Shown: positions 1-5,443 of the stretch, piece by piece
Layout of the letters: the number at the start of each line of letters is the position of its first letter
Position numbering within the stretch: position 1 is the first letter of the stretch
Source: an uncultured Bacteroidales bacterium
GTDB taxonomy: Bacteria; Bacteroidota; Bacteroidia; Bacteroidales; Bacteroidaceae
Direction of reading: 5' to 3'
DNA length: 5,443 nucleotides
Assembly (NCBI GenBank): GCA_937896105.1
Contig: CALBKR010000152.1
Coordinates: forward strand, 1 to 5,443
Translations under genes and position numbers: made by a program
The notes under the pieces: model-generated
Seen by the model: only the letters and a program-made list of their open reading frames with translations
What the model was told of the DNA's origin: nothing
Databases searched by the model: none

Positions 1-49
1 CGACCCCAACCTTGGCAAGGTTGTGCTCTACCAACTGAGCTATTTCCGC
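1..49 (-). tRNA. tRNA-Gly(GCC), 3' end cut off by the window edge
   Basis: Read on the minus strand from 49 to 1, this gives the 5' two-thirds of a canonical elongator tRNA. The acceptor 5' strand is GCGGAAA, followed by UA, then a D-arm with stem GCUC/GAGC and loop AGUUGGUA. After one A comes an anticodon arm with stem CAACC/GGUUG and loop UUGCCAA, so the anticodon is GCC and the tRNA decodes glycine GGC/GGU. The variable loop GGGUC and the first T-stem base follow, and then the window ends. The T-arm and acceptor 3' strand cannot be checked, so full integrity is an assumption. It is the downstream member of an array that includes two defective copies of its own 5' half (141-225 and 234-321), and it probably shares the promoter at 444-474. 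Confidence 0.9.
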
Positions 50-140
50 GTTTTTAACAAGCGAGATTTCCGGCTGTGCTCGTTGCGTGAAAGTAAACTT
101 TCCCACTCGCTTGCACGGAAATTCCGCGTTTCGCGAATTT
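50..140 (-). other. Spacer between tRNA-like unit B and tRNA-Gly, rich in inverted repeats
   Basis: This spacer carries several inverted repeats. CAAGCGAG at 58-65 pairs exactly with CTCGCTTG at 106-113. Inside that pair lies a small hairpin, GAAAG (89-93) with CTTTC (98-102). ATTTCCG (66-72) is the exact reverse complement of CGGAAAT (116-122), so the two long pairings interleave and could exclude each other or form a pseudoknot. No coding region is supported here. It probably acts as a processing spacer in the tRNA precursor; that role is inferred. Confidence 0.5.
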
Positions 141-225
141 GCTCTTTAGTATCACCTTCCCTTGCCAAGGTTGGAACCCTTATCTTTTACGGCAAGGTGT
201 GCTCTACCAACTGAGCTATTTCCGC
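141..225 (-). pseudogene. tRNA-Gly-like unit B: tRNA 5' half fused to an unrelated hairpin
   Basis: Read on the minus strand from 225, it starts with the acceptor 5' strand and D-arm of the neighbouring tRNA-Gly, identical except for one deleted A (CACACC instead of CACAACC), and runs through the anticodon GCC. It then departs completely: there is no anticodon 3' stem in place, no T-arm with TTCRA, and no acceptor 3' strand, so it cannot form a chargeable tRNA. The following segment can fold as CCTTGCC pairing with GGCAAGG, with a 9-nt bulge on one side and an inner AAGG/CCTT stem closing a 7-nt loop. It differs from unit A by three substitutions and one deletion over about 85 nt. It could be a decayed tRNA duplicate or a tRNA-derived small RNA. 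Confidence 0.65.
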
Positions 226-233
226 ATTATTTT

Positions 234-321
234 GTGCTCTTTAGTATCACCTTTCCTTGCCAAGGTTGAAACCCTTATCTTTTGCGGCAAGGTTGTGCTC
301 TACCAACTGAGCTATTTCCGC
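234..321 (-). pseudogene. tRNA-Gly-like unit A: tRNA 5' half fused to an unrelated hairpin
   Basis: The first 36 nt (321 down to 286) match the neighbouring tRNA-Gly exactly, from acceptor base 1 through anticodon base 36. The next 31 nt form a predicted hairpin: CCTTGCC with GGCAAGG, a bulge GCAAAAGAT, and an inner AAGG/CCTT stem around loop GTTTCAA. A tail of about 21 nt follows, ending in GAGCAC. No T-arm and no complement to the acceptor 5' strand are present, so ordinary charging is excluded. Unit B repeats the whole arrangement 96 bp further on. A second, imperfect anticodon-arm-like stretch with central GGC lies within the hairpin. A tandemly duplicated pseudo-tRNA is the conservative reading; an expressed structured RNA is possible because a strong promoter lies just upstream. 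Confidence 0.65.
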
Positions 322-437
322 ATTTTCAAAATGCGAGAATTTTCTGTTGCATTTGTTGCAAATAAGCAAATTCTCATCTGCCTATTCGAAAATTCCGCAA
401 ATTATTAAGCGATATTATCATTGTGCGTTTCGCTTAA
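322..437 (-). other. Leader of the tRNA-like array with three hairpins
   Basis: This is the stretch between the predicted transcription start and the first tRNA-like unit, about 116 nt long. In transcription order it holds an inverted repeat TTAAGCGA/TCGCTTAA (430-437 with 405-412) right at the predicted 5' end. Next is a longer interrupted stem, GAGAATTT/AAATTCTC (368-375 with 335-342), enclosing a short ATTTG/CAAAT stem (351-363). Last is a compact palindrome at 320-334 (GCATTT/AAATGC) that overlaps the first two bases of unit A. No convincing coding region lies here. The palindrome next to the mature 5' end may affect 5' processing; that is speculation. Confidence 0.5.
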
Positions 438-443
438 CGGGTG

Positions 444-474
444 CAAAGGTAGCACTATTTTTTTAAACCACAAA
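444..474 (-). promoter_or_regulatory. Bacteroidetes-type promoter for the tRNA array
   Basis: On the minus strand a TTTG element (471-474) is followed by exactly 19 bp and then TACCTTTG (444-451). This is a full match to the Bacteroidetes primary sigma factor consensus, TTTG with a 19-20 bp gap to TAnnTTTG. A/T tracts lie upstream of TTTG (about 475-500) and inside the spacer. Transcription should start near 437 and run through both tRNA-like units into tRNA-Gly. Confidence 0.8.
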
Positions 475-1157: not shown

Positions 1158-2333
1158 TCAACACATTCTGTCGCGGTAATCCTCGTACCCGAACACCTTG
1201 TACATCTCAAACTCGCCATCCTCGCGCAAGAGAGCAATGCTCGGGTGCGATATTCCATTGAACATATTTGTCTTTACAGTAGTATAGTGTATCATATCCT
1301 CGAACACCACCCTGTCACCTATTTTCAGCGGCTGCGGGAATTTCCAGCTGCCCATATAGTCACCGCTAAGACAGCTGTTTCCGCCAAGACGGTATATATT
1401 CTCTTCGAAAGGAGCACCCTTCACGGCATCGGCATCAAGAGATTCGGCACCTGTCACTGTGGGCTGGTAAGGCATCTCAAGACAATCGGGCATATGACAG
1501 GTAAAGCTGACATTGAGAATGGCAGTGCGTATACCACGGCTCTCGACAATATCGACCACCTCGGATACCAACGAGCCTGTCTGCCAAGCAAAAGCAGAGC
1601 CAGGTTCAAGTATCACCTTGAGATTCGGATAACGGCTGCGCAATCCTTTGAGCAGGCCGATAAGATGCTCCACATCGTAATCCTTGCGTGTCATCAGGTG
1701 ACCGCCGCCAAGGTTCAGCCATTTGATTTTAGGCAACCAACGGCCGAATTTCTCCTCGATATGCACTAAAGTGTTCTCCAAAGCATAGGAGCTTGACTCG
1801 CAATGGCAATGGCAATGAAAGCCCTCGATGCCGGCCGGCAGTTCACTTGGCAACAGGTCGGCAGTGACACCGAATCGGCTACCGGGAGCACACGGATTAT
1901 AGAGTTCGGTCTCAATCTCGGAATATTCGGGGTTGATGCGTATACCGCACGAAATAGCGTGACCGGCCTCTTTTGTAAGCGGATAGAAACGCTCATACTG
2001 CGAGAGCGAATTGAATGATATGTGGCTGCTGCAACGCATCATCTCACCGAACTCATCCATCGTATATGCCGGAGAGAAGGCGTGAGCCCTGCTGCCGAAC
2101 TCCTCGAAAGCGAGACGTGCCTCGTGGATGGAGCTTGCCGTAACCGAACTGATGTACTCGCGAAAGATTGGGAAACTCTTCCACAGGGCAAATGCCTTGA
2201 AGGCGAGTATTATCTCCACGCCGGCCTCGCTTGCCACACGGCTTATCAGCGAAAGGTTACGGCGCAACAATTTCTCCTCCATCACATAACAGGGCGATGG
2301 CACCTTATCTATCATATCGTTTACCTTATACAT
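1158..2333 (-). CDS. nspC: Carboxynorspermidine/carboxyspermidine decarboxylase
   Basis: A 391-residue PLP-dependent decarboxylase of the alanine racemase/ornithine-DAP decarboxylase fold (fold type III). It decarboxylates carboxynorspermidine or carboxyspermidine to norspermidine or spermidine in the cytoplasm, the last step of the aspartate-semialdehyde-dependent polyamine route used by Bacteroidetes, Vibrio and Campylobacter. Visible motifs: the PLP lysine K46 in LAFKAFALW; HCHCES at 173-180; the phosphate-binding glycines NLGGGH (207-212); EPG (243-245); and a C-terminal GGNSCLSGD (318-325) with C321 and D325, the expected active-site residues contributed across the dimer. Length is normal for the family. 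The partner dehydrogenase (CASDH) is not in the window. The start codon overlaps the helicase stop by one base (TAATG), indicating translational coupling. M7 is an alternative start. Confidence 0.93.
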   Translation of the reverse strand: MYKVNDMIDKVPSPCYVMEEKLLRRNLSLISRVASEAGVEIILAFKAFALWKSFPIFREYISSVTASSIHEARLAFEEFGSRAHAFSPAYTMDEFGEMMRCSSHISFNSLSQYERFYPLTKEAGHAISCGIRINPEYSEIETELYNPCAPGSRFGVTADLLPSELPAGIEGFHCHCHCESSSYALENTLVHIEEKFGRWLPKIKWLNLGGGHLMTRKDYDVEHLIGLLKGLRSRYPNLKVILEPGSAFAWQTGSLVSEVVDIVESRGIRTAILNVSFTCHMPDCLEMPYQPTVTGAESLDADAVKGAPFEENIYRLGGNSCLSGDYMGSWKFPQPLKIGDRVVFEDMIHYTTVKTNMFNGISHPSIALLREDGEFEMYKVFGYEDYRDRMC

Positions 2334-4774
2334 TATCCTATGATTTTTAATTTTGCAAATTTAAGCAGCAGGGTCTTCACGCCTGCATTCTGGAACTTAA
2401 TTGTAGCCTTTGCGTTCTCGCCGGCGCCCTCGGTCGACTGTACCTCGCCCACGCCGAAACGGTCGTGCTGCACTATCATCCCAATGCCCAGCCTCGGCTG
2501 CGCACTACCCGAAGCACCGCTGCTGTATCGCTGTACATCCGACACGCGGTAAAGATTGGACGGCCTTGGAGCCGGTGACGGGGCAGGCTCCACGCGTCTG
2601 CCCGGTGCGTCACTGCTTTGCTGCTGCGCAGCACGGCCTGCGGCCGGCATACTGTCAAACCCGCTACGGCGCCACTGTTGCTGTTCACCGGCCTGCCGTT
2701 GCCCATAGCTGCTACCCTGGGCCGCACGCCTTGTGCCATAGTTGCTGTTCGTGCTGCCGAATAGACCTCCCGAGCGGAACGGCTGCTGCTGACGGGGCTG
2801 CAATGCAGCCCCACGCATAACCATATAAGCAGGATTTATCTCTTTGAGGAAACAGCTTGGCTCGCAGAATCCGAACTGGCCATATTTATAACGGCTCTTG
2901 GCAAACGACAGGATACAATGGTCCTTTGCGCGCGTTATCGCAACATAGAGCAGACGGCGCTCCTCCTCCATCTCACGCAGCGACTCACGGGCACACTGAT
3001 TGGGAAACAAATCCTCCTCGAGCCCCACGATGAACACCGTGCGGAACTCAAGACCCTTTGCCGAGTGCACAGTCATCAATGTTATGCGCTCTCCGTCGCC
3101 ATCATCATTGCTGTCGAGGTCGGACATCAGCGACACCTCGGAGAGGAAATCTGTAAGAGCGACGTGCTCGTTACCCTCCTCAAGATGCATATCGACAAAA
3201 TCCTGTATGGCAGCCATCAAGGCATCAAGGTTCTCCTGCCTTGCCTTGCCCTCGACACTCATATCGCGATAGAGGTCATCGCGCACACCGCTCTCATTCA
3301 CCACGGCACGCGCCACCTCCACAGCATCCTTCTCGGCAGCAAGCTGCGAGAAACGCTCTATCATACCGGCAAAAGCCTGCAGCTTTGCCATTGTTCCCCG
3401 GTTCACATCAAGACCACCAGCCAACGGGTCGGCAAGAACCTGCCACAAGCTCATCGAACGCTCCACAGCCAAATCCTTCACCTTCTGCACCGTCTTGTCG
3501 CCAATGCCGCGCGCCGGGTAGTTTATTATTCGTTTGAAAGCCTCCTCGTCGTCCTTGTTACAAATAAGACGGAAATAGGCTATCACATCCTTCACCTCCT
3601 TGCGTTGGTAGAATGACAGACCGCCATATATGCGGTACGGGAACGCCCTGCGCCTGAAAGCCTCCTCAAAGACACGCGACTGGGCGTTAGTGCGGTAAAG
3701 TACCGCAAAGTCGCTGAACCCAAGCCCTTCGCTGCGACGCAGCCCGGCAATCTTGTTCGCCACAATCTCCACCTCCTCGAGGTCGGAGTATGCAGGGTAA
3801 AGCTCGAGCGGCTCGCCATCGCCACGCTCCGAAAAAACATTCTTCTTTATCTGCTCGCTGTTCCTTGCTATAAGGCTGTTGGCAGCATTTACAATCATCC
3901 TTGTAGAGCGGTAGTTCTGCTCCAGCTTGAATATCCGCGCACCACCATAACGCTCGGCAAAACCAAGTATATTGCCAATGTTCGCACCACGGAAAGAGTA
4001 GATACTCTGCGCATCGTCGCCCACAACGCATATCGCCTTGCGCTCCTGCGTCAGCTGCCACACGATGCAGCCCTGCACATAGTTCGTGTCCTGGAACTCA
4101 TCGACGAGAACATACCTGAAGCGGTCGACATACTGCCGCAGCACATCGGGGAAATCACTGAACAGGCGGTACGTATTCACCAGCAGGTCATCGAAATCCA
4201 TTGCGTTCGCCAGACGGCAACGCTCGGCATACCTTTTATATATCTCGTATACAGCCGGGATACGCGCCTTGTTGTCGTCACTGCGCAGGCCACGGTCATT
4301 TTCGTAATCGGACGGAGAGATAAGGTTGCCCTTTGCAGCCGATATGCGCTCGGCAACAGCATTGGGCTTGTAGACCTTGTCATCGAGCTGCATATCCTTT
4401 ATGATACTCTTCACAAGGCTGCGCGAATCGCTCTGGTCATATATAGTGAACTGCGGGCCATAACCGATGTGGTGAGCCTCACGGCGCAATATCTTCGAGA
4501 ACACAGAGTGGAAGGTTCCCATCCACAGCATAGAAGCAGCCCTTGCGCCGACACGCGCCGCAATACGCTCCTTCATCTCATTTGCAGCCTTGTTGGTAAA
4601 GGTGAGCGCAAGTATCGACCAAGGCTCGAAACCATTCTCAAGCAGATAGGCTATCTTGTATGTAAGCACACGCGTCTTGCCCGACCCTGCACCGGCAATA
4701 ACCAGCGAAGGCCCGTCAAGATACCGCACAGCATCGAGCTGTGCCCCGTTCAGTTCATCCTCGTAATTTATCAT
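2333..4774 (-). CDS. uvrD: ATP-dependent DNA helicase, UvrD/PcrA type (SF1A)
   Basis: A 3'-5' superfamily 1A helicase acting in nucleotide excision repair, mismatch repair and conflict clearance. From the ATG at 4774 it has 813 residues; an in-frame ATG at 4858 would add 28 (numbering below uses that longer form). Motifs: Q motif LNGAQ (36-40), Walker A AGAGSGKT (55-62), Ia LTFTNKAANEM (85-95), Walker B DEFQD (253-257), III GDDAQSIYSFRGA (280-292), IV QNYRS (314-318), V TVHSAKGLEF (596-605), VI ERRLLYVAITRAK (633-645). A low-complexity Q/S/G/R-rich linker spans about 683-767, then a Tudor-like C-terminal domain (about 790-841, IGMIVQHDRFGVGEV) that binds RNA polymerase in PcrA/UvrD. The later start is preferred: similarity to family members begins there, the 28-residue extension shows no motif, and a candidate promoter lies inside that extension. 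First gene of an apparent operon with nspC. Confidence 0.93.
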   Translation of the reverse strand: MINYEDELNGAQLDAVRYLDGPSLVIAGAGSGKTRVLTYKIAYLLENGFEPWSILALTFTNKAANEMKERIAARVGARAASMLWMGTFHSVFSKILRREAHHIGYGPQFTIYDQSDSRSLVKSIIKDMQLDDKVYKPNAVAERISAAKGNLISPSDYENDRGLRSDDNKARIPAVYEIYKRYAERCRLANAMDFDDLLVNTYRLFSDFPDVLRQYVDRFRYVLVDEFQDTNYVQGCIVWQLTQERKAICVVGDDAQSIYSFRGANIGNILGFAERYGGARIFKLEQNYRSTRMIVNAANSLIARNSEQIKKNVFSERGDGEPLELYPAYSDLEEVEIVANKIAGLRRSEGLGFSDFAVLYRTNAQSRVFEEAFRRRAFPYRIYGGLSFYQRKEVKDVIAYFRLICNKDDEEAFKRIINYPARGIGDKTVQKVKDLAVERSMSLWQVLADPLAGGLDVNRGTMAKLQAFAGMIERFSQLAAEKDAVEVARAVVNESGVRDDLYRDMSVEGKARQENLDALMAAIQDFVDMHLEEGNEHVALTDFLSEVSLMSDLDSNDDGDGERITLMTVHSAKGLEFRTVFIVGLEEDLFPNQCARESLREMEEERRLLYVAITRAKDHCILSFAKSRYKYGQFGFCEPSCFLKEINPAYMVMRGAALQPRQQQPFRSGGLFGSTNSNYGTRRAAQGSSYGQRQAGEQQQWRRSGFDSMPAAGRAAQQQSSDAPGRRVEPAPSPAPRPSNLYRVSDVQRYSSGASGSAQPRLGIGMIVQHDRFGVGEVQSTEGAGENAKATIKFQNAGVKTLLLKFAKLKIIG

Positions 4775-4808
4775 ATATACATATTGCCTTGCAACGGCAA
4801 ACCATTTG

Positions 4809-4840
4809 CGAAGATATGCAAAATCCGTCACATATCCGAA
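4809..4840 (-). promoter_or_regulatory. Candidate promoter for uvrD-nspC-HD operon
   Basis: On the minus strand TTCG (4837-4840), a 20-bp gap and TATCTTCG (4809-4816) each miss the Bacteroidetes promoter consensus (TTTG, TAnnTTTG) by one base, with correct spacing. Transcription would begin near 4802, leaving a leader of about 28 nt before the ATG at 4774. The match is imperfect, so this is tentative. The TTCG box is half of an 11-bp palindrome (4836-4846, CCGAA-C-TTCGG) that could be an operator. Confidence 0.4.
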
Positions 4841-4890
4841 CTTCGGCAAGGCAAACATTGTTTAGCTTATGAACTAATAACCGAACAGCA

Positions 4891-5443
4891 ATGAGTACAT
4901 ACATTAAAACAACCCACACAGGTTTCCAAATGCCTGTGCTTCTCTACCCCGCCGGTGCACTTGCCCCTGTGATAAGCCAGGCGACAATCGAGTGCCACTA
5001 CGGCAAGCACCTGCAGACCTATATCGACAACCTCAACAAACTTGTTGCCGACACCGAATACGACGGATACACCCTTCGCGAGATTGTAGAGCAAGCCCCT
5101 CCCGGACCTCTTTTCAACAACGCCGGACAAGTTCTGAACCACTCGCTCTACTTCGAGCAGTTCACCCCCACCCCACCCGGCAACAACCGCCCTAGCGGCA
5201 ACCTCAAGGAGTTCATCCATTTCGATTTCGGCAATTTCGACAACCTGAAGAAGCGAATGGAAGAGGCTGCCGCATCGCTTTTCGGCAGCGGATGGGTGTG
5301 GCTGGTACAGGAGGAGAGCGGCAAGCTCTCGGTCATAAACTGCTACAATGGCGACAACCCCATACACCGGCGTATGACACCCCTCTATGGCATCGATGTT
5401 TGGGAGCACGCCTACTACCTCGACTACCAGAACCGCCGTGCCG
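4891..5443 (+). CDS. sodB: Fe/Mn superoxide dismutase, 3' end beyond the window
   Basis: The reading frame is open from ATG 4891 to the window edge (184 codons seen); family members are about 190-200 residues, so only the C-terminal tip is missing. It dismutates superoxide to oxygen and hydrogen peroxide in the cytoplasm, an oxygen defence in anaerobes. The four metal ligands are H36 (CHYGKH), H84 (GQVLNHSLYF), D169 and H173 (DVWEHAYYLDYQNRR). The N-terminal and C-terminal Sod domains are both recognisable, with FGSGWVWLV at 131-139. Q80 beside the second ligand is the Fe-SOD-type position; L82 and G167 match residues reported to allow use of either metal in the Porphyromonas gingivalis enzyme. 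No signal peptide is seen. It is transcribed divergently from uvrD. The leader has no clear Shine-Dalgarno sequence, and I could not identify its promoter with confidence. Confidence 0.95.
   Translation, partial: MSTYIKTTHTGFQMPVLLYPAGALAPVISQATIECHYGKHLQTYIDNLNKLVADTEYDGYTLREIVEQAPPGPLFNNAGQVLNHSLYFEQFTPTPPGNNRPSGNLKEFIHFDFGNFDNLKKRMEEAAASLFGSGWVWLVQEESGKLSVINCYNGDNPIHRRMTPLYGIDVWEHAYYLDYQNRRA

Follow-up and report, generated by a model that had tools for sequence, protein, structure and literature searches.

Hairpin units with an arm antisense to the anticodon arm precede tRNA-Gly(GCC) genes in some Bacteroidales

The window, a 5,443-nucleotide stretch of DNA from an uncultured Bacteroidales bacterium, carries on its minus strand two tandem units (U1 and U2) between a Bacteroidetes-type promoter and a tRNA-Gly(GCC) gene. 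Each unit runs from a sense copy of the tRNA 5' half (nt 1-36) through an A-rich loop with an inner AAGG strand to an antisense arm, R, complementary to the anticodon arm of the same tRNA. Units of this design recur in related genomes ahead of tRNA-Gly(GCC), and R changes in step with the local tRNA. We tentatively favor, at somewhat less than even probability, a reading in which the unit is a cis-acting antisense leader hairpin able to mask the anticodon arm of its own tRNA-Gly(GCC). We regard this kind of module as new and infer its function; a search of one open-access library found no description of it. If this reading is true, a single tRNA gene would be regulated by its own antisense, a new way of setting tRNA dosage. 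Under a neutral reading, too, a repeat family would be growing and shrinking before one tRNA gene, with an antisense arm that tracks that gene.

Anatomy and occurrence of the units

The 5' half of U1 (286..321, minus strand) copies tRNA-Gly nt 1-36, of which nt 30-36 form the left arm of the hairpin, L. An A-rich bulge and loop follow (268..285, minus), delimited from sequence and fold and holding the inner AAGG strand, and then the right arm R (255..267, minus), the reverse complement of tRNA-Gly nt 30-42; base 268 fits nt 43 too. In U2 the corresponding parts are a 5' half that lacks one A at nt 28/29, in the anticodon stem (191..225, minus), a bulge and loop likewise placed by sequence and fold (173..190, minus), and R (160..172, minus), again the reverse complement of nt 30-42. 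The unit end, AACCTTGGCAAGG, is thus complementary to nt 30-42, and nt 43 also fits. A spacer with more inverted repeats (50..159, minus) separates U2 from tRNA-Gly(GCC) itself (1..49, minus), of which nt 1-49 precede the window edge; the Rfam tRNA model scores it at 34.5 bits with its 3' end cut off.

U1 and U2 depart from tRNA-Gly at the identical base and differ from each other by three substitutions and one deletion, as a sequence-only reading of the window had described. The observation of two units is confirmed, and since many genomes show this design, chance is excluded. The CCTTGCC/GGCAAGG stem named in that reading is present, and both units fold better than most shuffled versions (z = -2.2 and -2.1; 2 and 6 of 200 shuffles, respectively, were equally good), with a predicted energy of -12.8 kcal/mol for each hairpin alone. 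In the predicted local fold, L pairs with the 3' half of R, the anticodon is paired, and CCTT of R pairs in most units with AAGG or one of its variants. The segment shared by the two units had been taken to be unrelated to tRNA but is partly tRNA: nt 30-43 recur, as the reverse complement, in its 3' arm. Having neither a T arm nor an acceptor 3' strand, the units do not form the complete cloverleaf of a functional tRNA. They score 18.3 (U1) and 15.2 bits (U2) against the Rfam tRNA model, below its cut-off of 29, and ARAGORN reported no tRNA anywhere in the window, the intact tRNA-Gly being truncated at its edge.

Upstream of U1 lie a -7 box, TACCTTTG (444..451, minus), of the TAnnTTTG type, and, 19 nt from it, a -33 box, TTTG (471..474, minus). 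The arrangement TTTG-N19-TACCTTTG matches TTTG / TAnnTTTG, the Bacteroidetes promoter consensus. In 77 of 88 loci, TAnnTTTG lies no more than 150 nt ahead of the first unit, versus 18 of 88 for the opposite strand. Of the earlier proposal that the units are expressed, the promoter box stands, and transcription itself we infer to be probable. Beyond the promoter, the window encodes a RelA/SpoT-like HD-domain protein (537-1148, minus; scores below family cut-offs), the carboxynorspermidine decarboxylase NspC (1158-2333, minus; 500 bits, over the cut-off), a PcrA/UvrD-type helicase (2333-4858, minus; score under the PcrA cut-off), and an Fe/Mn superoxide dismutase cut by the window end (4891-5442, plus).

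According to our searches, the module precedes tRNA-Gly(GCC) in three families: in 32 of 399 genomes of the first, 43 of 101 of the second, and a single genome of the third. The first count is the union of hairpin and 5'-half searches without the chance hit, and includes the centre genome (G003) and G151. The hairpin search of the 399 genomes gave 25 matches, one of them a chance coding match (G032), and the search for the 5' half alone gave 28 genomes. R is present in 27 of these 28, though it was not required; the G151 locus is broken by a contig end. In the second family (that of G629), 20 of 61 genomes carry the 5' half, and the hairpin search matched 44 of 101, with G1021 matching by chance. 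No 5' half was found by pattern in the other two genomes of the third family (that of G496). Across 295 genomes of the order, G629 and G496 are real besides the centre, and G436 is a chance match; across 296 genomes of the phylum, the centre alone is real and two others are chance matches. The 5'-half searches required an exact D-arm/anticodon string, so their counts are minimum values. Because the hairpin searches matched only exact cores of L and R, decay of R was judged solely from searches not requiring R. By these searches, most genomes of both main families are without the module.

Presence is patchy on a finer scale as well. Of 80 loci reached via nspC, 56 have an intact tRNA-Gly(GCC), and 3 of these have a unit (L003, L005, and L015); the close relatives L001, L007, and L008 show no unit at the window's locus. 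Tandem copy number ranges from 1 to at least 8, with at least 7 copies ahead of one tRNA-Gly in G629. Variants of the GGCAAGG strand include two that keep a G-U pair (GGCGAGG and GGCAGGG) and three at terminal pairs; the stem is kept, and the unit recurs in relatives, which bears out the earlier view of a conserved unit and not a private pseudogene. The module is seen both in metagenome-assembled genomes (L003, L005, and L015) and in large assemblies of a single contig (3.9 Mb in G1038), so it should be testable in culture.

The position of the units is specific. Of 110 hairpins with a recognizable 5' half, 85 run into tRNA-Gly(GCC) within 1.2 kb, and the remaining 25 are interrupted by the end of a contig or of the stretch read, or by N, before a whole tRNA is visible. 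The gene downstream of the units is a tRNA that is itself intact. Among 47 distinct tRNA genes read in G1038, units occur only at the two tRNA-Gly(GCC) genes (8 and 1 units; ~0.87 Mb apart), and none of its other tRNAs has an antisense run of at least 10 to the anticodon arm within 450 nt upstream. One tRNA-Asn of the same genome has an intact tandem copy.

Coevolution of the antisense arm with the local tRNA

The anticodon stem of tRNA-Gly(GCC) (nt 27-29/41-43) occurs in three versions among these loci. The bases of R opposite nt 41-43 match the local tRNA in 67 of 71 loci, with G-U allowed and kinship uncorrected, versus a shuffle mean of 38.3; none of 5000 shuffles, which ignore phylogeny, reached this value. 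The 71 loci are distinct and contribute one unit each, that nearest to the tRNA, after the chance loci L237, L286, and L091 and loci without a tRNA in reach were dropped; an earlier locus set gave the same match in 41 of 44. The four exceptions at nt 41-43 are AAA versus TAA (two), TTA versus TAA (one), and TAA versus CGA (one). R thus stays complementary as the tRNA changes, the behavior expected if the leader is antisense to its own tRNA.

The match is not explained by pairing within the hairpin. The minimum free energy (MFE) structure of the local hairpin leaves all three R bases unpaired in 24 of the 71 loci, and 22 of these 24 match (shuffle mean, 12.3; 0 of 5000 shuffles; kinship uncorrected). 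Of 215 unit pairs with loop identity of at least 0.75 and different tRNA classes, both R sequences are exactly of their own class in 167, and the other 48 include wobble changes (CGG and TGA) as well as true exceptions. In G1083, two tRNA-Gly(GCC) genes have different anticodon stems, and R fits its own gene at each, which is consistent with action in cis. Nucleotide 44 shows no covariation signal (R could pair there in 48 of 71 loci) and is uninformative, since the tRNA is invariant at this position. The anticodon stem is nearly palindromic, so that R also resembles tRNA nt 27-31, and antisense cannot be told fully from copying by nt 41-43 alone. Recent local birth of units would mimic part of the coevolution.

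R is also conserved. When 20 paralogue pairs were compared within arrays, each against the first unit of its locus, 3 of 300 sites differed in R, 9 of 722 in the 5' half, 22 of 384 in the loop, and 30 of 501 in the spacer (R versus loop and spacer together, 52/885: Fisher p ~2e-4). Exchange with the tRNA could keep the 5' half uniform; for R, which is inverted, the tRNA offers no simple means of correction. In the G1038 array of eight units, the D-loop differs from that of the real tRNA while its GG pair is kept. The unit D-loops at L235 and L236 of this genome read AGGATCGG or AGGATAGG, against AGTTGG in the real tRNA-Gly, which indicates that units are not simply overwritten by the tRNA.

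Among 129 L-loop-R matches in the loci, 19 have no recognized half. Sorted by eye, these are three chance matches, two interrupted by N, ten whose halves are mutated or truncated, and four of particular note. By the same inspection, the D arm is gone in L245, L253, and L258, the last two also being without a recognizable acceptor strand, and L and R are kept in all three; in L285 the half has decayed and L and R are kept. Loss of the D arm from three loci that keep the hairpin indicates that the 5' half is not the essential part. This tells against the earlier suggestion that the tRNA half is the active part, as a tRNA mimic, a decoy for RNase P or glycyl-tRNA synthetase, or a source of 5' halves, as do the paired anticodon of the local fold and the fact that the covarying part is the antisense arm. 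Overall, the sequence-only interpretation was partly supported.

Predicted folding and competing explanations

Folding of the leader together with its tRNA is predicted to bring R onto the real anticodon arm. In 37 of 38 contiguous leader-plus-tRNA stretches, the MFE structure pairs R with that arm and not with L; the sole exception is the decayed unit of L164. Relative to separate folding, joint folding gains a predicted -11.2 kcal/mol on average, and -4.4 kcal/mol once R is shuffled. With 30 shuffles per locus, the gain is never reached in 27 of 36 loci, and in the other 9 at least one shuffled arm reaches it. The R duplex alone is predicted at -28 to -30 kcal/mol and the free anticodon arm at -5 to -9 kcal/mol; because the model omits pseudoknots, tRNA tertiary contacts, and modified bases, all of which favor the free tRNA, these values describe a possibility and not occupancy. 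For loci with a lost or decayed half, the model predicts a gain of only -2.5 (L245), -5.1 (L285), or -7.6 kcal/mol (L253). In the window, the MFE structure of U2, spacer, and tRNA nt 1-49 pairs R of U2 with the real anticodon arm, and with U1 included, GGCAAGG of the U1 R arm pairs with L of U2. In 12 stretches examined, the unit 5' half and the tRNA 3' half together make up a composite cloverleaf (MFE). We rejected this cloverleaf as a conserved function, as three loci without a D arm keep R, and for the same reason it enters the mechanism below only as a possible dead-end state.

In the mechanism that we propose, R would be complementary to nt 30-43, the anticodon arm, of the tRNA that shares its transcript, and L, the copy of tRNA nt 30-36, would serve as a lid over R. 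With the lid on, the downstream tRNA would fold and mature; should R swap L for the real tRNA, a duplex of ~14-15 bp would form across the anticodon arm. Bases of R that are unpaired in the local hairpin could begin this exchange in a toehold-like manner. With R on the tRNA, the tRNA 3' half could then pair with the unit 5' half to give the dead-end composite cloverleaf, and the net effect would be a tRNA-Gly output limited or timed, and tuned by unit number. A more specific form of the proposal, which we consider unlikely, is a natural strand-exchange switch: the emerging tRNA would displace the lid, each transcript would end as either free tRNA-Gly or composite cloverleaf, and arrays would act as an evolvable dosage dial.

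The main rival is turnover of a neutral or selfish tandem repeat, to our judgment somewhat unlikely. Here, fold-back template switching at the palindromic anticodon arm would create a tRNA half with an inverted copy, recombination with the tRNA would add or remove copies, and R would be kept only to silence a harmful half-tRNA in the leader. The palindromic arm would indeed invite fold-back copying, arrays are of labile size (1 to at least 8 copies), occurrence is patchy, close relatives are without units, and decayed units exist (L164, L151, and L236). Against this model, similar loops bear different R sequences in step with the tRNA, and R is retained where most of the 5' half is lost (L245, L253, and L258). 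Moreover, a single recombination with the tRNA could remove a unit cleanly, yet 43 of 101 second-family genomes keep it.

A trans-acting RNA, a broadened form of the earlier decoy idea, is distinctly improbable. Released units would act as a decoy or sponge for tRNA-Gly, for fragments of it, or for an enzyme that binds tRNA, and the high ratio of units to tRNA in arrays (8 to 1 at one G1038 locus) would suit such a role, as would the complementarity of R to the anticodon arm of any tRNA-Gly(GCC) of the same class. Yet 85 of 110 hairpins lead into tRNA-Gly(GCC), with the other 25 interrupted, and tRNA-Gly(GCC) alone has units among the 47 tRNA genes read in G1038. In G1083, with its two classes, each R also fits the gene that it precedes; the units can do without the D arm, and local folding pairs the anticodon.

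We consider it very improbable that the unit is a transcription attenuator, with its hairpin controlling a spacer terminator ahead of the tRNA. A G+C hairpin with at least 5 T was found in 6 of 120 spacers, from three second-family genomes (L243, L244, and L182), whereas the same scan found no terminator in the other 114, both window spacers included. In addition, L168/L243 would hold three terminators in series before Gly and Leu tRNA genes. That the unit marks where an integrative element entered tRNA-Gly, as a scar or attachment site, is hardly credible: the break falls at the anticodon loop, a frequent integrase crossover region, but R changes along with the tRNA, and no larger element was seen between unit and tRNA in the loci read. 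Viral carriage was likewise rejected, two patterns giving no exact match in viral contigs; a BLAST search with window positions 1-420 against phage records returned 12 records with short, tRNA-Gly-sized pieces.

Comparison with known systems and further observations

In a search of the window against 4227 Rfam families, only RF00005 reached gathering level, on the cut tRNA. In five other loci, the matches over cut-off were complete tRNAs, and three weak matches to other families fell below their cut-offs. T-box leaders bind tRNA in trans, by short codon-anticodon pairing and contact with the CCA end, and control protein genes. The unit resembles them as a leader RNA that would recognize one specific tRNA via its anticodon. 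It differs in preceding the tRNA gene itself, in an antisense of ~14 nt, and in having no general terminator; no T-box match appeared in the cmscan of the window and five other loci, and the downstream gene is a tRNA.

Group I introns occur in bacterial tRNA anticodon loops, where an internal guide sequence forms P1 and P10. R could similarly pair across both sides of the nt 36/37 junction. Unlike in an intron, however, the unit half and the tRNA 3' half are ~100-180 nt apart in the folded loci, and the downstream tRNA is intact; with no Rfam intron match, we rejected this candidate. tRNA pseudogenes and the partial tRNAs that integration leaves behind usually derive from the 3' part and decay. 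The units share with them a partial tRNA beside an intact one, but they carry a 5' copy and a coevolving antisense arm, and no element was seen in the loci read.

Leader pairing that slows RNase P has a precedent: 5' leaders of pre-tRNAs that pair with the 3' RCCA reportedly extend the acceptor stem and slow the enzyme (PMC9433436). The antisense leader proposed here would likewise alter maturation through leader-tRNA pairing; the unit differs from those RCCA-pairing leaders in being antisense to the anticodon arm and in carrying its own lid.

Several features of the loops and spacers deserve mention. Loops of the second family are purine-rich and, in many genomes, close to CCAAAAGGAAATGGAAAC, with GGA motifs. 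A small ORF in the loop was entertained because a frame exists in G629 and L090, and was rejected by eye, as frames differ among units and many are without a start codon. We also considered CsrA-like GGA loops and an rrn-type boxA, the latter on the wrong strand. In L168/L243 (~1550-1600), L244, and L182, a G+C hairpin followed by 6-7 T lies between unit and tRNA, and in G1005 a terminator-like hairpin occurs three times before tRNA-Gly and tRNA-Leu. In the window's clade, the spacer start (GGTGATACTAAAGAGC; 141-156 and 237-252, minus) shows imperfect MFE pairing with the D-arm of whichever tRNA or unit follows, which extends the antisense beyond nt 30. The spacer at 50-140 holds palindromic repeats; a similar text, AAGTTTACTTTCACnCAAyGAGC, follows the unit in L104, and parts of it occur near units in L100 and L106.
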